Below are positions 16,921 to 32,343 of a stretch of 64,000 bases of DNA, piece after piece. This stretch comes from Siniperca chuatsi (lineage: Eukaryota; Chordata; Actinopteri; Centrarchiformes; Sinipercidae), in assembly GCF_020085105.1 (NCBI RefSeq), contig NC_058055.1, positions 7,638,822-7,702,821 on the forward strand, written 5' to 3'. The translations under genes and the position numbers were made by a program. The number at the start of each line of letters is the position of its first letter. Within the stretch, counting starts at the first letter, position 1. The notes under the pieces were generated by a model. It searched no databases, had not been told where the DNA came from, and saw only the letters and a program-made list of their open reading frames with translations.

Positions 16921-17324
16921 TTACGTAGTTAGCAGTTTGGAAATGATGTGCATAAAACTGATCAGCAATGTTACTTCTGTAGTAAACCAGTATAGTTTAG
17001 TAAGTAGTAATTATTAATCAAATAATATGTAATGACATTTTCATCATAACCATGTTTTTTCAAATTTACTGCAATAATACTATGAATTAAAATTAAAACA
17101 ACATTTTCTATTTTTGTGGGAATTTTGTAAATGGATATTAAAATAATAGTCACTGCACACTGAATTATGTAACAAAGTTGTAAAAAAGGAAAATATTTCC
17201 CCAGGGATTACCATTGCCAGTTTCTAAGGATGACTCTCAGCTGCAGCACCAGTTGATGAAAAACTATTTCAGACCTTAACATCTTCGTCAGAACACCAGA
17301 GGCATCAAAGATCATAAGTTTGAA

Positions 17325-20300
17325 ATGTGTGATCCTCAAGAAAAAGACCACAAGCACAGAAAGACTGCTAACTCAAAATCTCATCAAATGAAGCACCATC
17401 ACCAAAACCAAGGCCATCTTCATCACCATGACCAGCAAAAGTTACATCAGTCAGATGACAATGATAGTCATGAGTAAGTTTAGACATTGTTTCCACAGTT
17501 ACATGCCTGTTCTTATGTATGGAGTCTGTGCTTAATTTTAAAATATATTGTTTGTTGTAATATGTTTAACAAAGTACTACTAATTAGAACTAAACCAAAG
17601 TACAGCTTAGGCTGATGGGAATGTCTTTAGTTTCGCAGGTATTTGGTCATTAATCACTGTATTGGACAAATTTTATATTTTGACCTGATGACACCGCTAG
17701 ATGAAAAGTTATTACAATTTGATAACAATCCATCTAATAGTTGTCGAGACATTTCACTGAAAATCACAAATGTCAACCTCAAAGTCACAGAATCACCAAA
17801 GTCAGTAGGCTTTATCCTCCAGGGAACATGAATGTCAATGGAATTTTGATTCATAAATTTGCTCTGCTATTACAAAAGTAATTATCATTATCATTAGCTT
17901 GTATTGGTATCCAGTGTGTCTTTAACACCTATTTTCTTTTTAAAATAGCACCAATTCAACAGCGGAGGACAGTATTTTCAGCGATCATCACCCCGACCAT
18001 CGACATCAGTGTGATAATGACAAGACTCATCATTCCCACTGTCACCATTACCATCGCAAGCAAAACCATGTTTCTCATCCCAAAACTCCCTTGAGTGATT
18101 CAACTGGTTCCTCTTCATCCTCCTCTTCTTCTTCATCCTCTTCATCAACATCCTCCTCCTCTACCTCTTCCTCCTCCTCTTCCTTTTCTTCCTCCTCTTC
18201 AACGTCTTCCTCTAGCCTGTCCTCTGAGACCAGCAGTGAGTGTTTAGATAGTGTTCCACTTAAGAAGCCCCAGCATTCACAGTCCTGTACTGACATTTCC
18301 AGGAAACATAGATACTTTGAAGAAGGAGACGACACAGCCCCTTTGATAGATAAAAAGGGTTATCTAAACAGGCTCCCTGCCAAACAGGAACGAGAGAAAG
18401 GCAAGTCCTCCCACAGGGGCCCTACTCAGGGCACCCTGAAGAACACACAGAGGATTACAAGAGGCTCGGGAAATGATGGAAATTTCCGCAAAGCCAAATC
18501 AATGGAGGCTCTCACTAGACCCAAAGAAAGTGAATGGCATGGAAATGAAGATGAAAATGAATCAGAGAGGAGCAAAGGGGAAGCCAGGAAGAATTTAATG
18601 AAGGAAAAAATGAAGTTCTCTGCCTTCCTTAATGAGATCACTCGGCAGGTGCTCAGCCCGATGAGACTCACCACTCTTGGGGTTACAGAGGCTCAAAGAC
18701 CCTGCAGTCCAGGGCAGGCCTCTGTTAGATCCAGTAAAGTAGACAGCAGCACTGAGAAACTCAGACAGCAGAGGAGTCGGCCTGCCAGTGCAGACTCAAT
18801 TAGCTCCAGCAAGTACTCCCATACCAGCAAGCACTCTTCTCAACTTTCTCACTCTAAATCTTTCCACCACCATCATAGCCACTGTTCTGCAGACTCACCC
18901 CATCACATGTATCACAGGCCCAGAAGCAGCACTGATGTTAGCTGTTTGAAAAGAGGTCACTCCCATTCGCCTTCTCATAAGCACCATCACCACCGTCACC
19001 AAGGAGACCATCGCACTTTTAGTCGTCATCATCACCATGGTGACCGCAACAGCCCAAGGAATCTCCATCACCACAGAGACCACCACAGTCCTGTCTATCA
19101 TCATGGAGGTCACAATAGCCCCACTTATTCCCATGGTGACCAACACAACATTTCTCATCACCACAGAGACCATGACAGCACAACCCATCAAGATCACTAT
19201 GGAGACTATCATCGTGGAGACCAATGCAGCCCAACTCACCACCATGGAGAGCACTGCAGTGAAACTCATCATCATCACCATGGAGACTATCATAGCCCTG
19301 CTCGTCACCATCACCATGGAGAGCACCATGGCCATGCTCATCACCATCGTCATGGAGACCACCATGGCCATGCTTATCACCATCGTCATGGAGACCACCA
19401 TGGCCATGCTCATCACCATAGGGATCATCCTATTACAACTCATCATCACCATGGAGACCACCACAACCCAACTCACCATTGTGAAGGTCAACACACCCCA
19501 ACACATCACCATGGAGACCATCACAGTTCAGGTCACCACCGCCATAGCACACACCCAAACATTGAACGCCCTACTACACCACGTCACCATGGACTCCACA
19601 GCCTAACCAATGACTGTGGAGATCACCAAAGCCCAACAATTCATCATCACCATAGTGACCACCACAACCCAACACATCACCATCACCATGGAGACCACCA
19701 CAGTCCAGGCCATCACCATCACCATGGAGACCACCATAGTCCAGGCCATCGCCATCACCATGGAGACCACCACAGTGAATCTCATCAGCATCACCATGGA
19801 GACCACCACAGTCCAGACCATCACCATCATCATGGAGACCACCACAGTGAATCTCATCAGCATCGCCATGGAGACCACCACAGTCCAGACCATCAGCATC
19901 ACCATGGAGACCACCACAGTCCAGACCCTCAGCATCACCATGGAGACCACCAATGTGAATCGCATCAGCATCATCATAAAGACCACAACAGTGAATCGCA
20001 TCAGCATCATCATAAAGACCACCACAGTGAATCTCATCAGCAGCAGCATGGAGACCACCACAGCAAAGCTCATCGGCATCACCATGGAGACCACCACAGT
20101 GAATCACAACATCATCAGCATGGAGACCACCACAGTCCAAGCCATGAGCAACGCCATGGAGACCACCACAGTCCAGGACATCAGCACCAACATGGAGACC
20201 ACCACAGTATAGCTCATCGGCATCACCATGGAGACCACCACAGTGAATCTCAACATCATCAGCATGGAGATCACCACAGTTCAGACCATCAGCATCACCA

Positions 20301-23300
20301 CAGAGATTACTATAGTACATGTCATCACAAAGGACATCACCCTGAATCACAGCTCAACCAGCCCCACTCCAAAAACAATGATATTGACCATGATGACATT
20401 GATGACCACAACACTAATTTAAAGGGGTATTCTGCTGGCAGTCCGCCTTCACACAGGAAGCTGGAGTCTCTTTCCAACAAGGCAGATTCACCCAGGAACA
20501 CCAGCAGCTCCTCCAGTCAGGAAGAGGAACATACAAGCTTCACTGGCTCATCATTACATAAAGTATGAGATTTCTCTTGGGGGATTCATTCATGAAATTC
20601 TGTATTACAGTATGTCCATAAAGTAATTATTGGCAAGTCAATAGTTGCCTGTGTTATACATGCTTGATTAATTGGTTATGTAATAATGTTCCACTAATTT
20701 GCTTGCCTATTGATTTGGGCACCAATGTGCATGTCACTGTGGACACTAGATTAGTTATTATAGAACAATAGATTAGTTATCATGCACAAACTAATGGTAA
20801 TCAAATTGACATTTGAAATTGTTCTTTGTTCTTCTTTGTTCTTGTACTTTATTCTTTGGGCATCATTAATATTATTTCTGAATGTCATTTTTCTTGTCAA
20901 AGTAATTTTGTTTGCTTTAATACAGGAAAAGCCACATGAGCTGGGTAGAATCATGTAAGTGTGATTTGGGTTTGTTAACTGATAAAAGTTATAATCCAAG
21001 TGACAACCATGGCCGTGATATTGTATATAGATTAATTAGTTTCACACTCTAATTATTGTGAATGTCATAGAAAACACTGACCTGTGTAATTTTACACCCA
21101 ATGTGTAACATGAGAGTAATGAGAGTGATGACAGAATGTGTTCTTAAATAAATTCATCAAACGCTCATGTACTTTGACTCACTCAATTTCATTTCTCTGT
21201 CTATCCTGACAGGATACTACAGGAGCAGAATGAAGGTCTGCATCAAAGTTTGCTGAAGACAGCAGTGAGGATGGAGTGTTTAGGAGAGGAGTTCATGAGC
21301 AGCCAAAAGCTTTTGGAGGCAGAACTCCAGAGGACACGTGTGGAGCTTAGCAACCTCACAGAGAGGTTTAAGAGGTAAAGAATGCACAGAAAGCACTTTT
21401 TGTTTAACCTCCTCCTCCTCCTCCAATATGCTCAAAGCTTGTGAGCCAAAAGCTTGACTCAGAAAATGAAGCTGCATAAAAAAGATTACATCAAATTCCT
21501 TTTATGTTTTAATAGGGGAATATCAACTTATGCTCTTTAATAGACAGTTTAGGATTCCACATGCTATACTTACTAGCCTGTCAAATTAATTTATTCCTCA
21601 ATCAATTAACCTGTTAAACATAAAGTTGGGCTCATGCAACGTAAACGTTTTTCAACGTGCAGTTAGTCAGGAAATGTAACACAATGGGTACTATGGGTTT
21701 GATACCTATGTTTGATAGGCACTGAAAGCAAGTGAATGAAATGCACTGCAACTCTCTGTGATGTATTGTTGTTGTACCTGAATGTATTTATCTATACAAT
21801 GGAAATATATACAATTTCAGAGATCTGAAAGTTGTCCTCAGAAATAGCTTTGAAATGAGATTTGATCTCTGTTTTTACTATCTGTCTCAAGTTTTAGACC
21901 TGAGATGATAGTTGTGAATGATGCATAGCTACTGTATATTACTTAATCTCAAACAATGTGGGATATTGCATGTATACTGCAATGCATTGTACTATTGTTG
22001 AGTAACTTCTCTCTCTCTCTCTCTCTGCCATATTTTAGACTACACGACAAGTGCTCCTCCACACAACAGACTAATAATTTTCTAGAGCACAAGCTTCATT
22101 CAGTGGTGAGATTGGAAGCATTTCTATGTTATTTGTGCTTAACCCTAAATTATTAGAAACTTGGTTATAAATGGTTATAACAGACTGAGCAGTTATTTAA
22201 ACTCTTGGGAGGGGATACCGTGACATAAGTTCGCCACTTACTGAAGGTCAGTGATGGAATGTAACTAGTACTATACTCAAGTACAAATTTGAGGTACTCG
22301 TACTTTACGTGAGTATTTCCATTTTATGCTACTTTATACTTCTGCTCCACTACATCTCAGAGGCAAATATTGTACTTTTTACTTCATTACATTTGTCTGA
22401 CAGCTTTGGTTACTAGATACTTTTCAGCTTACAAATCTTCATACCCTTCCTGTCCAATGAAAACCATGTATCTCCAAATTTGGTGATTTTAAATTAGAAT
22501 TTTTCTGATGAACTGAAGGATGAAGTGTTCCTTTATGGGTTGAGAAAATTCGCATGCTTAGTTAAATAAACTATTTAAACCCCCCGTTGGATTAGCTGGA
22601 AAATGAGGCTGTTTTTCTGAACTCATGAAAAGTTGACTTTTTAGAGATACATGATTCTCACAGGACAGTGACGCTACAAACATATGATGATCTTATAGAA
22701 TGTGATGCATTATTGTAGATTAAACTACCCAACAGTATATAAAGTTGTTAAAATTAGCTCAACCTTAAACATCTACAGCAGTAAAATGCAACATACACAT
22801 TAATTCAGCAGTAATAATAATCCCAAAACATCATATATAATAGTAAAACACTGACAGGGAACATTTACTGCAGAATGAGTACTTTTAATTTTGATACTTT
22901 AAGTACATTTAACTAACAATACTTACATATTTACACTTAAGTACAATTTTGAATGCATTACTTTTACTTGTAGTGGGAGTATTTTTACAGTGTTATATTA
23001 ATACTTTTACTTAAGTAAAGGATCTGAATACTTCTTCTGCCACTGCTGAAGGTTTATTTGTTATTATTTTGTGCTCCCGGTGCTTTCTGTGTCAGGCTCA
23101 GAGTATGGAAGACGAACGTGAGAGGTTGAACCGGCGTATTTCAGCACTGACGGAGAAGCTTGCTGATGCAAAATTTGCCAACAGTCTGGAAACATTCAAT
23201 GTAAGATCTTTACCTCCCTCTTAAATTCTAGGCAGACAGTGGCAAACACATTGAGAGGCAGGGGAGGAAAACTGGAAAAGGGCAACGCCACAATGACTGA

Positions 23301-24268
23301 AAAATATTCTGGTATTCCTCATGATTCCTATTACGGGCAAGAAAAGACAGGCCAAGAAATACAAATGAAATACTCATAAGCCTCTGTGAAATTGTTTAGT
23401 GCACATGCAGCATTCAGCACGCTTTTTTTATTCATACAAAAACCTCTACTTACTACTGTAGGTAACATCAGTGCTACACAGAACCGACCTCCATTTTCAG
23501 TCAGATGATGCCATTAATCAGGTGGTTCTCCCCATCACTCCCCCTCCGGCTCAGTTCATGGACGGGCAAAACTATGGAAAGTCCAAAGCCGGCGGGCAGG
23601 AGCAACCTCTAGGGTCAGTTCCAGAGGAGGAGGAATCTGACTGGTCAGAGATGGGAGAAGAGACCCCACGATTTATACTGACAGGATCAGACAGAGGTCA
23701 AGCGTGGAGACACCGGGAAGGAGACGTGGACAAAGACAGCGAGTCAGGGGTCGAGGAAATTGTCAGACGACACTCTCCACGCGCCCCCCAGATACCTCAT
23801 CTCCAGTTCACCATTCACAATGAGAATCTGTCTGATGGCATGAGAGGTGAGGGCACTTACAGGATCACCACAAGTCCAAGCCTTGGCTCGGCCACCCTCA
23901 TCCGGTCAGCTAGCCTGGAGGAAATCCCTCTAGCACGCCATCACATGCAGAAGGAGCTAAGAGGCACAGAGGCCATGATGGACCTCCACCACCAAGGGGA
24001 CGAAGCTATTGAGGATTTAGATAATGAGATCATTCATCACTGGAGAACAAGCAACGCCAGGGATGCAGCTATTGGGAGGCCGATAGAAAGCAGGACGTCA
24101 GAGACAGATAGCAGCCTGACCAGCCTGCAGTCAGCTGAGCTGATGCTAAACCACTTCATATGTGAACCGCAGCCGGGTGAAGGAAAAGGTCAGGGCAGGG
24201 CTGAGGTGCACGGCTGGACAGGAGGGATTCCAGACAAGGTGTTGAGAGGGGAGCGAACACAGCTGTGA
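17325..24268 (+). CDS. large Ser/His-rich protein with a TJAP1/BEGAIN-like coiled coil
   Basis: Predicted exons: 17205-17473 (ATG at 17325), 17949-20562, 20926-20954, 21213-21374, 22039-22105, 23096-23200, 23462-24268. All join in phase and give 1310 residues. Residues 1-100 are His-rich, a poly-Ser block spans about 101-148, and a conserved-looking helix KFSAFLNEITRQVLSP lies at 272-287. A His tract of 12-residue repeats (HHHHHGDHHSP type) covers about 356-848. A coiled coil follows at about 930-1042 (LQEQNEGL, FKRLHDKC, QQTNNFLEHKL, LTEKLADAK), then an acidic, Ser-rich tail. The coil aligns by eye with TJAP1 and BEGAIN, junctional/synaptic scaffold proteins. No signal peptide or membrane segment is seen. 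Function is unknown; metal binding or condensate formation by the His tract is inference. The start codon is less certain than the rest. Confidence 0.75.
18105..18228 (+). repeat. coding poly-Ser pyrimidine-rich tract
   Basis: A run of TCC/TCT/TCA codons encodes nearly unbroken serine with a few Thr and Phe. The coding strand is almost all pyrimidine. It lies inside the large exon and keeps the reading frame. The acidic open frame on the opposite strand is its shadow. Confidence 0.9.
18860..20345 (+). repeat. coding minisatellite, 36-bp unit, His-rich
   Basis: Degenerate tandem units centred on 'catggagaccaccacagt' repeat through the large exon. The clearest period is 36 bp (12 residues) at 19670-20280, and shorter 10-12-codon variants lie upstream. 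Units end alternately in SPD/SPG or SES. About half of the residues in the best-preserved part (near 19700) are His. The frame is never broken in about 1.5 kb, so the array is translated and selected to remain open. Long open frames in other frames and on the minus strand come from the 3-bp periodicity. Confidence 0.92.
22249..23045. mobile_element. non-autonomous hAT-type element with 8-bp target duplication
   Basis: The element begins CAGTGATGGAATG and ends (read on the minus strand) CAGTGGCAGAAG, giving short imperfect inverted ends. Both ends carry the 'actttactcaagtac'-like words of a common fish family. The 8 bases CTGAAGGT flank it on both sides (22241-22248 and 23046-23053), the target-site length of hAT transposons. 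It has no transposase frame. It lies in the intron before the exon at 23096 of the His-rich gene, with its right duplication 43 bp from that acceptor. Confidence 0.85.
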
Positions 24269-25295
24269 GAGAAACAAGTGCACTGTTCACTGTGTCTGAA
24301 ATCATAATTTACTGTGAGCTTTATTTACTCGGAAAAGTTCAATGGAGCTCTTTTTCAGTGGCTCAGTGGTTCAGCCTCAGTACTTAACATGTGGTTTGAG
24401 GAGACTTTGAATTCAAACTGTAAGACTTACTGGATTTACTTGCCTGTCTCTAACTGACACTTTTCAGACAGCACATTGGGCTCCCTCATTTGTTTCTTAA
24501 TAAAAATCTACACTTAAATAAATAATCATATTACATGCATTCAACACACGTTTGCAGTTTTAACCAAGCCTATAAAAAATGAGATCAATACACTTAACAT
24601 TTGCCAAGTGGAATTGGAGACAGATGAATAATATATGTATTTAAACATAAACTATATTTTTCTGTACCTTGAAACATCCTCTACGGCTTAGATTTGGTCA
24701 TTTAATGGTAAAATGTAGATGTGTATTTTTGTTATAAATGCAGATATAGCCATTTCCTTTTTCTGTTCTTTCATCTCTGTGAAATACAAAAGGTAGTTAT
24801 TCTGTTTATCTGTTTGCTTTATTGCATGAAACATCATATATTCATATAAGGTGTACTTCTTGAGTAGGTAGCCACAATTATGCATTGTTGAATGCATGGT
24901 TTAATGCCATATACTGCAATCTAAAAACATCCTAAAATATTTTTTTTTCAGTGTTTTCCTGTTAATCAATTTACCTGTTAGTCTTAGTAGGCATATACTA
25001 TATAACATAATGAATACTTACAGTCACAATACAGTTTTGAAATAGCTTTAAATATGTTTATAATGAAAAACTATTGTCCTGTCTCTGTGTAAAACATTTA
25101 TTTCCTCTGGTTGCAATAATTATCCTGCCAAAGTAAATGCTTACTTACTATTGAACAAATTTCCCAAGCTTGTGTAAATACCATCCATGTAACTCTGTCT
25201 TTGTAACAATTAATAAACCAAATGAAGAAACAATGAGACATAACTCCAACTGTCTACATTTGTTTTATTACTGATCAGCTTTCCTTCAAAAGGAA
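24269..25295. other. 3' UTR of the His-rich gene and intergenic DNA
   Basis: An AATAAA at 24499-24504 lies 231 nt after the stop at 24268 and is the likely polyadenylation signal. A second hexamer lies near 25211. The remainder is AT-rich, with no supportable gene. Confidence 0.5.
24499..24504 (+). terminator. candidate polyadenylation signal of the His-rich gene
   Basis: AATAAA 231 nt after the stop codon at 24268, in an AT-rich 3' flank. Confidence 0.5.
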
Positions 25296-25299
25296 TAGA

Positions 25300-26175
25300 T
25301 ACAGATGAAGACAGATAACAATGATAATAATAACTGCTAACTAGCACCTTTCAAAACAAAGTTACAAAGTGCTTTACAATAAAAGCATATTATAAAAGCA
25401 AATAAGATCCAGAACTTAAGATATAAACATGATAAAATAATTTAAATAATTACAACAAATACCATCAGATTGAGAAAAAGCCATACGATAAAAGTGAGTC
25501 TTAAGACGAAATTTAAAGGAGGATACTGTGGTTGCCTTCCAGGCAGGGAGTTCCACAGAGGGGCCCAGACCACAAACGCCTGGTCACCTGGACAAGGCGA
25601 GATTTTGGAACCATGAATAGAACCCTGCCAGGGGATCTCAAGCAGCGATCAGGCTCATAGGGAGTCAGTAGATCACAGATATAGGCAGGAGCCAGACCAT
25701 TCAAGGCTTTAAAAACAAGCAGTAAAATCTTAAAATCAATTCTAAAACTCACAGGTAACCAGTGAAGGGCAGCAAGGATCGGTGCGATGTAGTTGCTTCT
25801 CTTAGTCCGCGTTAAAAGCCTGGCAGCAGCGTTTTGTATCGGCTGCAAACTTTGGATATTTTGCCTGCTGATACTGAATAAAGTGCGTTGCAAAAGTCAA
25901 GTCTGGAAGAGATAAAGCATGGATGACCTTTTCTAAGTCTAGAGGAAAGGAATGACCTAATATTGATTAGCTGTCTCAGCTGTGCAAAGCAGGACTGCAC
26001 CACTTTAGTCACCTGAGCATCAAAGGACAATTCTGAATCAAAAATGACACCTAGGTTGAGGGCCTCTTTTCAAACATTACTAGATAAGGCACCCAGGCTA
26101 GAGGAGAGATTATTTATGCTGCTAGTACGGGGGCCACATAGATCTAGGGAGGAGTTGCTCTGAGTTTAACAGGGC
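25300..26175 (-). mobile_element. 5'-truncated L2/CR1-like LINE, C-terminal reverse transcriptase part
   Basis: Read on the minus strand, the segment encodes recognisable pieces of a LINE ORF2 end: LNLGVIFDSELSFDAQVTKV near 26060-26000, then SCFAQLRQL, NAAARLLTRT and ALHWLPVSFRIDFKILLL near 25830-25710, then the NGLAPAYICDLLTPYEP block. The pieces lie in different frames, and at least one stop and frameshifts are visible, so it is dead. The 3' end carries 'gcacctttcaaaacaaagtt' (read on the + strand) and an ATAATAATA-type tail near 25320. The 5' end is lost near 26175, as usual for LINE copies. Confidence 0.85.
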
Positions 26176-28731: not shown

Positions 28732-31700
28732 ATGGTGGTGATGAAGATGAAGTTCCCCTTTCAGAAAAGGGTGAAGCTAGCCCAGGGACTGTGGCTCCTC
28801 TCCTGGTGTGCCACAGTGGCTGGGGCTCTCACCTTCAGCCTGGGGTGCATCCTCAAGATAGAGCTCAGCAGGAGGGCAGAGGTACTTTTCAACTTTTACA
28901 TGCTAAGACTTTGAAGCTTAGTTCATAATTCCGAAGCTTTGTTGTTTTTGACTATTTTTTTTGTAAGTTAACAACAAACTACAACAATCAACAGTGTAAT
29001 TACTTATAGTTTAATTGCAAAAGTGAGTGGCATGTAATGACGTCTCTCAGTGTAACCATATAGTAGTATGTGTCGTCCAACTGTGTTCATACTGGGAAGA
29101 AAATCAATACGCCTCGTTGCCACAGAGAAAACAGATAAAGTATAAATTGCTAACAATGATTCTGAACTCTAAGTTGTAAGGTGATACAGTTGATTACACA
29201 TACCATCTGTGCCTGTCTTACTTTCAAACTGTTGGCACAATCTTTTTGGGAGAAAACGTGAAAATGGGAAAAAGTGTCTTGAAAAGATAAATTAAATGTG
29301 ATAGCGTCAAAGAAATGTCCTTGACCAACAAGAGGTAGATACACCTGTGACCCAGTTTGGATCCTGACTCATCATTTAATAAACCAGGCTCTGTCAGTCT
29401 TAATCACCCTAATCCCTACTTCTGAAGGCTGCCATCACAGCTCTTTATTATTAACAAACCTACATAGTTTTTAGCTAATTTGGATGTTTCATTATTTGCA
29501 GCCTCAAAAACATCATATTTGCACAACTATGCTATTACAGCTATTGCTATGTTATTCACACTATTTCAGGTATTTCTAAAAGTACCAAAATACTGTATTA
29601 ATTTTTATTTATAAGAATTTCATGGCAAAAAGAGTTCTTTTTGACCTGTTTTGATTGTTTCATTCTTTGATAGCTGTGGTTATGACAGTATTCTGTTTGC
29701 ATGGCTGTAAAATGTACATATGATGAATGGGAAAAGAAAAAAGAAAATGAAAGACATACAATAAGTAAACAAATAAATCACAGAATATATGAGGCTTGCA
29801 CAATTTTTATCATGCCATGTCTCTATGTATATTACATTGTTGTTTACACTACTGATTTTCATCCCATCATTTTACTCTGGAGGAAAATCAATGTAATTGG
29901 ATAAAAGCCCATCAGATTCTGTGGAATACTTTGGGTGTCTTCCCTACAACAAAAAGGGCTTTTTCACAAATGCTTAACTATGCAAACTTATTCAACTATT
30001 GTCTTCTTACTGAAATCAAGCACTTTAGATGTCACTTTGTAAGAGAATTTCTGGCTTGTGCAAAGATCCTCTGCATAAACCATTGGAATATGTTAGTTTA
30101 CCATAGACTTGCGTACACAATACAGAGTCTCATATACTCTATGATCTCACTGGCCAATACTACATTTAACAGGGGACAGGTCATAACTGTGTTTTCATAT
30201 ATTTTGGTTTATGTACTTGCTTGTACAAACATGTTTTTGAACAGTGTGGATATGAATCCTGCTGGCAAAATTCGGACTGAGTGAGTGAAGGACATGTGCT
30301 CTACCCCTCCTCAGCAACTGCAGTTAGTGTAGGTGCCCTTGAGCAACACAGCTGAGCCTCAACAGCTTAAAGTGAGCTGCTCAGTGCTTAGTAGACTCTG
30401 ATTAAACTGAGATGCTCTTAATTGTGAATTATTATGTGACTGACCAAAATAATGGTGATGACAATCATTATATATGCATTTAGGAGATCGCCCCTTTATG
30501 AATAAAGGGTGAACTCTTAACCCTTCACATGTTGCATGGTCAAGCATTGTTCAAACCCACAGAACTTTAACTTTAAATTCAAGACTGTAAAGTCCGGCTG
30601 AATTAGTTGGATATGTTTATAAAATGAGGCACAAAACATTACGGCTACATTACTTCTGTCAGGTACTATATTTTCTGATACAGCATATTTTCATCCATTT
30701 GCTGAAAGATTATGCAGCATTTTTAACAAGGTATATTCTGATGTACTGCATGTTCCCTTGCTTCCTTACAGCAAACAAATAGAATTTAAAATGAGTATAT
30801 TATTGTGTGACTTACTTACAGGTAATGGATAACGCAGACATTCATGTTGTGCCCAATACCCTCATGATTGTTGGTCTGGCCTCCTTGGGTATCAACTACT
30901 TTGCTTCAAAGATCTGTCAGGATGCTCTGGATGCCGGGCGATTTCCTCGCTGGAAAAACTTCCTGAAGCCCTATTTTGCCATCTCTTGTTTCTTCACTGT
31001 CCTCATGCTGCTAGCTGTCATCATGAGCTATGCAATGACGGGCACTCTGGAGTCTTCTCTGAAGGCTGGCCTGAGGAACGGCATCCGCTTCTACAAGGAC
31101 ACAGACACCCCAGGCCGCTGCTTCCAGAAACAGAACATCGATCGCCTGCAGATGGAGTTTCAGTGTTGTGGAAACAATGACTTCAGGGACTGGTTTGAAG
31201 TCCAGTGGATCAGCAACCGCTACCTTGATTTCAACTCTAAGGAAGTGAAAGAGTAAGCTGAGGACAATATTATAGCGTGTAGTGGGGTGGGTTTCCCATC
31301 TGTGAATATTTATGGTTACAGTACTGCATCTAAAGATGAACAATCATAAAGTAACATGTTAGCAATCTGAAACATGTCTTTCACTTGCTTCCTTAGCCGC
31401 ATCAAGAGCAACGTGGATGGCCGTTACTTGGTAGATGGAGTCCCGTTCAGCTGCTGCAACCCCAGCTCTCCACGGCCATGCATCCAGTATCAGCTCACCA
31501 ACGACTCAGCGCACTATAACTATGAATACCAAACAGAGGAGCTCAACATCTACCTCCGAGGCTGCAGAGAGGCTCTGGTCAACTACTACATGGGCCTGAT
31601 GAACACCATTGGGGCTGGAGTACTGTCAGTCTTCCTCTTACAGGTATACTATGAGAAGAATTGCAGTGGTTTTACAGGGATTTCAGGCAAAGCTGGTGGT

Positions 31701-32343
31701 GCTAAGGTGAGCTTTTAATTTGGAGAATGGTCAAGGCATACCATTGGCTCTTTAGGGATTTGTACAGCTGCCAAGTTGTTATTAAACAACACTAAATTTA
31801 ACATTGTGTTATGTCTGTACAAGCACATGAAAAATTGTGCTGCAATATCCCACCATTCTGTAAGCTATACACAGCAAGCGCAAGGCTGGAGGCAAACTTA
31901 ACCAATTCTTGCAGTTGTATAACTCAAAGATTTCATTATTGAGAATCCTGACTTGATTGAGAGTGAACATTGATTCCTCATTCATTTGCTGTGTCTGATG
32001 TGAACAACTGATGCAATATCCATCAATCACCACTTCCCTTTGGTAGTCTATGTGGATCCTTGAAGATGCTCTCCAACGGAATCTGCTGTACATCTAACTT
32101 GCTCCCCCATTTCTCCACCTCCCTCCTTCCCAGGGCTCTGTGCTGGTGAGCTTGCGGTTCCTGCAGACCTCCATGGAGGCAGTGGAAGGGAAGGAAAACA
32201 CAGAGATTGAGACAGAAGGGTACCTGCTGGAGAAAGGAGTGAAAGAGACCATCATGGAGTACATCGACCCTTTGCTGAAGCTCCTCCTGCTTACAAACCA
32301 GGTGGAGGAGGGCACCCCAGCTGCTGCCCCAGCTACCACCTAA
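28732..32343 (+). CDS. rom1: photoreceptor disc-rim tetraspanin, rom1 / peripherin-2 family
   Basis: Exons 28732-28881, 30822-31252, 31397-31643 and 32134-32343 join in phase to 345 residues; human PRPH2 has 346 and ROM1 351. Four membrane segments and the large second extracellular loop are visible. The loop holds the CCG motif (C165-C166-G167), the NPSSPRPC block and C150, the family's intermolecular disulphide cysteine. N229 in an N-D-S sequon matches the PRPH2 glycosylation site. R172 is kept. The start [20 protein letters not shown], in a good initiation context (accATGG), resembles fish Rom1 as I recall it, and the 11q-type neighbours favour rom1. The loop, however, is closer to PRPH2 than mammalian ROM1 is, so a peripherin-2-like name remains possible. 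The protein shapes outer-segment disc rims as homo- and hetero-oligomers. Confidence 0.88.
28882..30821. other. intron 1 of rom1
   Basis: A 1.94-kb phase-0 intron between codons 50 and 51 of rom1. Apart from short unsupported open frames, nothing was recognised in it. Its position has no counterpart in mammalian PRPH2/ROM1 as I recall them. Confidence 0.75.

Follow-up and report, generated by a model that had tools for sequence, protein, structure and literature searches.

A probable third TJAP1/BEGAIN paralogue with an expanded histidine-rich front part in the genome of Siniperca chuatsi

In this study, we closely examined one gene in a 64,000-nucleotide stretch of the Siniperca chuatsi genome (C14:7638822-7702821, here called the window). 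An earlier note, made from the letters of this DNA alone, had predicted that the gene encodes a protein in which a large histidine (His)- and serine (Ser)-rich tract is joined to a coiled coil like that of TJAP1 and BEGAIN. Our analysis confirmed a real protein-coding gene, and comparison with the remainder of the 719-Mb genome, which was used for all genome-wide searches, indicated that it is very probably a third TJAP1/BEGAIN paralogue that is neither TJAP1 nor BEGAIN. Its unusual front part is a variant within this known family. To our knowledge, human TJAP1 and BEGAIN have no such His tract. Taking the data together, we lean towards a ROM1-linked third-paralogue gene, present as two teleost duplicates, whose product would combine a coil-dimer scaffold with motif-based binding and a metal- or pH-responsive His arm.

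The gene was rebuilt from the sequence as seven exons at 17325-24268 (plus strand). All six introns are bounded by GT-AG, and the exon phases join to a coding sequence of 3933 nucleotides with a single open frame (1310 amino acids plus stop), including 258 His and 179 Ser residues. The seven in-phase exons with good splice sites and the protein length predicted in the earlier note were thus reproduced after small corrections of the exon borders. The gene model comprises the following exons:

17325-17473, plus strand: exon 1, His-rich, with the predicted start codon (in-frame stop upstream at 17277) and a phase-2 donor
17949-20562, plus strand: exon 2 (2614 bp), with a short His cluster, a Ser tract, a conserved motif block and a His repeat array; phase-0 donor
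20926-20954, plus strand: exon 3 (29 bp), matching exon 3 of tjap1 in length and phase
21213-21374, plus strand: exon 4 (162 bp), encoding the first stretch of the coiled coil
22039-22105, plus strand: exon 5 (67 bp), encoding the middle stretch of the coiled coil
23096-23200, plus strand: exon 6 (105 bp), encoding the last stretch of the coiled coil
23462-24268, plus strand: exon 7, encoding the 268-residue C-terminal tail, without a Pilt domain and without an RKDSLT..AQ..GTLL ending

The frame of exon 2 is open over 874 amino acids. In 200 base shuffles of this exon, the longest open reading frame had a mean of 125 and a maximum of 276 amino acids, and the long frame is therefore not an effect of base composition. 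By eye, a stretch resembling a dispersed repeat, with ACTTAAGTA-type motifs, was seen in intron 5 at 22200-23080.

A search of the genome with the 76-residue window coil returned the coil itself and, at an expect value (E) of 0.001 or below, one other place, C11:29618161 (E = 1.5e-5, 38% identity). Against this locus alone, identity was 42.6% over 54 amino acids (E = 2e-10 and 7e-10 in this small search). About 14 kb beyond the C11 coil lies a Pfam Pilt domain with a score of 199 bits (202 bits in a second scoring of the exon), and the upstream frame contains MTSAAPARKPYRKAPPQHRETR (KPYRKAPPQHRETR), which closely resembles the peptide KPYRKAPPEHRELR of human TJAP1 given in a passage of PMC10820826. 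On account of the Pilt domain and this resemblance, the C11 locus was identified as tjap1. Its coil in turn found C16:19927783 (E = 1e-11) and C15:16754844 (E = 2e-9) in the genome. The C16 gene ends in SRKDSLTKAQLYGTLLN, the same 17 residues as a mouse BEGAIN peptide given in a passage of PMC5066261, and was therefore identified as begain, while the C15 gene was taken as its duplicate. Since tjap1 and begain are both present elsewhere in the genome, the window gene would be a third family member.

The exon structure of the coil is conserved as well. Exon 3 measures 29 bp in the two genes examined for it, the window gene and tjap1, and exon 4 measures 162 bp in four of five paralogues (the window gene, tjap1 and both begain genes) and 129 bp in the fifth, a gene on C8 described below. 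Exon 5 has 67 bp in all five (counted by eye for C8), and exon 6 has 105 bp in the window gene versus 108 bp, i.e., one codon more, in tjap1, begain on C16 and C8, these four having been examined. Phases of the coil exons are equal across the paralogues wherever they were read. The window gene thus possesses both a homologous coil and conserved exon borders, the two features by which membership in the TJAP1/BEGAIN coil family was judged, in agreement with the likeness that the earlier note had drawn by eye. An unrelated coil family, which would have spoken against that likeness, was searched for in PDB and Pfam and rejected for want of a good match: the best PDB match was stathmin-4 (E = 0.1), and all 19 Pfam matches at E ≤ 1 were under their cut-offs, the best being Leu_zip (E = 6.5e-4).

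With TJAP1, the window gene shares coil homology and the pattern of exons 3 to 6, and with BEGAIN coil homology and the lengths and phases of exons 4 and 5. In contrast to TJAP1, its coil and tail gave no match to the Pilt domain (PF15453) at E ≤ 1, the N-terminal Mint-binding peptide KPYRKAPPEHRELR (KPYRKAPP) was absent on reading the protein, and its front part contains 26% His compared to 5.4%. It also differs from BEGAIN, as the protein ends with RGERTQL and lacks a C terminus of the SRKDSLTKAQLYGTLLN type, and the upstream frame of begain on C16 contains only 2.4% His.

The fifth paralogue lies beside one of six peripherin-type loci found in the genome. Upstream of the C8 locus, on the minus strand, we found a gene with a coil exon and a 657-amino-acid frame. 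The coil exon (L023 9069-9197) has 11 codons fewer than the window copy, with the frame kept, and shows 48% identity to the window coil over 54 columns (E = 1.4e-9 in a 10-kb locus search). In order, the long frame carries a His cluster (14 His in 50 amino acids), a Ser run, PQHSLSC, KGILKN, RKAKSMEVL, KLQFSAFLDEITKQVISP, a weakly His-rich stretch and DSPR, and pairwise alignment with window exon 2 yielded two blocks, one with 36% over 118 columns (E = 3e-17), the other with 43% over 28 columns (E = 7e-5). Directly before the long exon there is a His-rich frame, HHHHHPLHHHRDPQSHR (L024 4089-4383, minus strand; 13 His in 98 amino acids, including HHHHHPLHHH). It offers a phase-2 GT donor, and the long frame is resumed in phase at the following acceptor (both by eye). 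This frame is likely the first exon of the C8 paralogue and the counterpart of window exon 1. Since C8 has the same layout without the long array, the layout seems to be older than the split of the two copies, and the 12-residue His array would belong to the window copy.

A long upstream exon also seems to predate the His array in the wider family, as judged from sequence comparison. Some 5.6 kb before its coil exon, the tjap1 locus harbors a stop-to-stop frame of 486 amino acids (L008 6546-8003, C11) with KSVELL and FLDEIT motifs, carrying KSILK, RKSKSVELL and VRFSNFLDEITCQVMSP. The FLDEIT block matches the window protein with 50% over 40 amino acids (E = 6e-9 within that locus, E = 0.002 genome-wide). 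For begain on C16, a 348-amino-acid frame with VKFSQFLDEVTSNVLDP (FSQFLDEVT) was found 16 kb upstream of the coil (L039 979-2022) and is possibly a long begain exon; the motif is assigned by position because its genome-wide E value is only 0.61. Altogether, an FLDEIT-type motif occurs at four of five loci, at one of them weakly, and all four long frames (window, tjap1, C8 and begain on C16) offer a phase-0 GT donor, seen by eye in the last three. The union of a His/Ser-rich exon with a TJAP1/BEGAIN-type coil described in the earlier note therefore stands, with the order kept in C8, whereas the idea of a tract newly attached to the coil does not, since a long frame bearing an FLDEIT-like block lies upstream of the coil in tjap1 and, weakly, in begain on C16 as well. 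Human TJAP1 has a short N terminus and starts with a short exon. The 486-amino-acid frame of the fish tjap1, in which the sequence MTSAAPARKPYRKAPP, a likely start, continues through the conserved FLDEIT block, is longer than this human N terminus. A tjap1 intron also contains a long degenerate tandem array of the CTCGGCTGTGA type (L009 5690-7220).

Within exon 2 of the window gene, the following features were identified:

18103-18232, plus strand: Ser tract, residues ~102-145, longest pure run 13 Ser
18265-18687, plus strand: conserved block, residues 156-296, with PQHSxSC, LKN, RKAKSME and KFSAFLNEITRQVLSP, aligned with C8 and tjap1
18847-20350, plus strand: His-rich region, residues ~350-850
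19641-20300, plus strand: 36-bp tandem array of 19 units with the consensus 12-amino-acid unit GDHHSPAHQHHH

Counts for every 50 residues showed much His at residues 1-100 and 351-850 and much Ser at 101-150, with a mixed composition at 151-350. The earlier description of the first ~920 residues as low-complexity Ser and His is hence corrected for residues ~150-345, which are mixed in composition and hold the conserved motifs. The long exon of the C8 paralogue contains 9.1% His, and the 12-residue array is absent from C8, tjap1 and begain on C16. Of 110 candidates scored in the genome-wide search, four matched the 12-residue unit at E ≤ 0.001; all of them lie inside exon 2, and a repeat dispersed through the genome was rejected. 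Comparison of the array units revealed a ratio of nonsynonymous to synonymous change (pN/pS) of 0.44 in the coding frame, whereas the five alternative frames gave 1.26, 1.91, 1.68, 4.13 and 1.18. When the same 102 changes were placed at random, 15.9 ± 3.0 were silent compared to 24 observed, and at least 24 were obtained in 17 of 2000 trials. This control gives moderate support for a coding-frame constraint on the His repeats. The expansion of the 12-residue repeat seems specific to the window copy, within an exon older than the array. As the protein holds 73 overlapping H.H and 106 HH pairs, a metal or pH response of the His arm is plausible.

Several other explanations were weighed. The locus could give rise to two transcripts, one for a protein rich in His and Ser that stops in exon 2 and one for a separate, shorter TJAP1-like product, or to alternative forms of a single gene. 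Unspliced, the exon 2 frame runs to a stop at 20568, two codons past the donor, and with a short first exon in human TJAP1, the family could have long forms and short ones side by side. We nevertheless regard this as improbable: all exon borders fit in phase, no AATAAA or ATTAAA was found in 20563-20925, after the exon 2 donor, compared to four in 24269-25400, 3' of exon 7, and in both C8 and tjap1 the coil is likewise preceded by a long frame that offers a phase-0 donor. More serious, although in our view still doubtful, is that a disordered linker expanded almost neutrally, giving an array with no function of its own. Its tandem nature and its restriction to the window copy would fit such an origin, but the reading frame is kept over 2.6 kb, the repeats are constrained in the coding frame only, and a His cluster and a Ser tract are retained in C8 too.

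The His arm might also act as a targeting signal for nuclear speckles or condensates, with the protein being partly nuclear. According to parts of PMC2644819, His repeats are often acquired by one among several duplicates, shifting the protein to another compartment, as in DYRK1A, FAM76B and POU4F2, and pure runs of six or more His send green fluorescent protein (GFP) to nuclear speckles. The same parts describe GFP-5xHis as indistinguishable from GFP, and no pure run of six or more His exists in the window protein, where the longest comprises five residues (four runs of that length). While the window gene resembles these three genes in carrying its His repeat in one duplicate, theirs are pure runs in proteins of nuclear speckles, and its own is a 12-residue unit with runs of at most five His. 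A speckle signal is thus unlikely.

For the scaffold with a metal- or pH-responsive arm, we tentatively propose the following mechanism. The coil would dimerise and, as in TJAP1 and BEGAIN, keep the protein at a membrane or junction-type complex, while RKAKSME and KFSxFLDEIT, short motifs in a front part that is probably disordered, may bind partners. The expanded His repeat would then serve as a multivalent arm that senses Zn/Cu or pH and alters clustering or localisation. One idea is that RKAKSME and RSASLEEI are phospho-sites for a Dlg-type guanylate kinase (GK) domain; we presume here that RKAKSME resembles a GK phospho-site. As far as the excerpts of the respective papers go, the TJAP1 coil is predicted to be a homodimer and TJAP1 binds ARF6 and Dlg-2 in two-hybrid assays (PMC10820826), TJAP1 is located at the Golgi (PMC13305319), and BEGAIN is among the GK partners (PMC6989407).

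The window gene adds a third branch to a small and poorly understood scaffold family. The front block with KSME and FLDEIT, common to tjap1 and perhaps begain, is a concrete target for partner searches, and a front part with 26% His is unusual on such a scaffold and makes a metal or pH response directly testable. Among the open-licence papers listed in our literature searches, no title or abstract opening describes such a gene; databases may hold predicted orthologues under uninformative names.

The genomic neighborhood bears on the origin of the gene. Its neighbor is:

30804-31718, plus strand: peripherin/ROM1-type tetraspanin, two exons

Both copies, on C14 (window) and C8, adjoin a tetraspanin, and tjap1 lies 0.27 Mb from a PRPH2-type gene on C11. 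The begain genes are about 9 Mb (C16) and 2.5 Mb (C15) from the peripherin-type genes of these two chromosomes. A tetraspanin tree was calculated from six fish and two human rows, with partial sequences for C8, C11 and C16, and branches were starred from 95/80. Without an outgroup, C14, C8 and human ROM1 were separated from the other five rows at 92/99, human PRPH2 grouped with C11 and C20 at 91/90, and C15 with C16 at 99/99. With TSPAN15 as the outgroup, support was 85/99 for the ROM1 group and 90/99 for C15 and C16, and no branch was starred. In our preferred reading, the window gene is probably an ancient ROM1-linked third ohnologue from the early vertebrate duplications, alongside the PRPH2-linked TJAP1 and BEGAIN, and is present in two teleost copies (C14 and C8). 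Three old copies, some of them doubled in teleosts, would be the simplest reading, albeit not a proven one. The genome-wide search with the tjap1 coil found no second tjap1 copy, which is no proof of its absence since the same search missed the C8 coil.

A number of observations weigh against this origin and the family traits tied to it. The ROM1 grouping stays below 95/80, human ROM1 forms a long branch with an unusual composition, and the PRPH2 group was not resolved with the outgroup. Against human PRPH2, the tetraspanin of the window reaches 314 bits, compared to 170 bits against ROM1, and PRPH2 gives the higher score for each of the six fish rows. Genome-wide coil searches failed to detect the C8 coil, which was found only upon fetching its locus, and the C8 paralogue is far less His-rich than the window copy (9.1% versus 26%). 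The FLDEIT match of begain on C16 is weak, and begain on C15 has none at E ≤ 10 genome-wide. Moreover, no match of the window tail to the C8, tjap1 or begain loci was detected.

A broader scheme, which we consider rather doubtful, would start from three early-vertebrate TJAP1-family genes, each linked to a peripherin/ROM1 gene and each with a long disordered front exon carrying the KSME...FLDEIT block, the ROM1-linked exon then having become the His arm of a metal- or pH-switched scaffold. The short forms of TJAP1 and BEGAIN are not known to show this block. If the scheme were true, a junction or synapse scaffold would have been turned into a metal- or pH-switched one.

Further along the window, VPS51 was recognized at 47-50 kb by eye only, and a PDB search there gave nothing. 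An open reading frame at 25513-25896 (minus strand), with no Pfam match at E ≤ 0.01, resembles by eye the end of a reverse transcriptase from a non-long-terminal-repeat retrotransposon. At 41.7 kb there is a weak FRMD8-type match with 25.9 bits (cut-off 29), and the ERG4_ERG24 match at 58.3 kb scores 27.6 bits against a cut-off of 27; we take these two neighbors to fit human 11q13.

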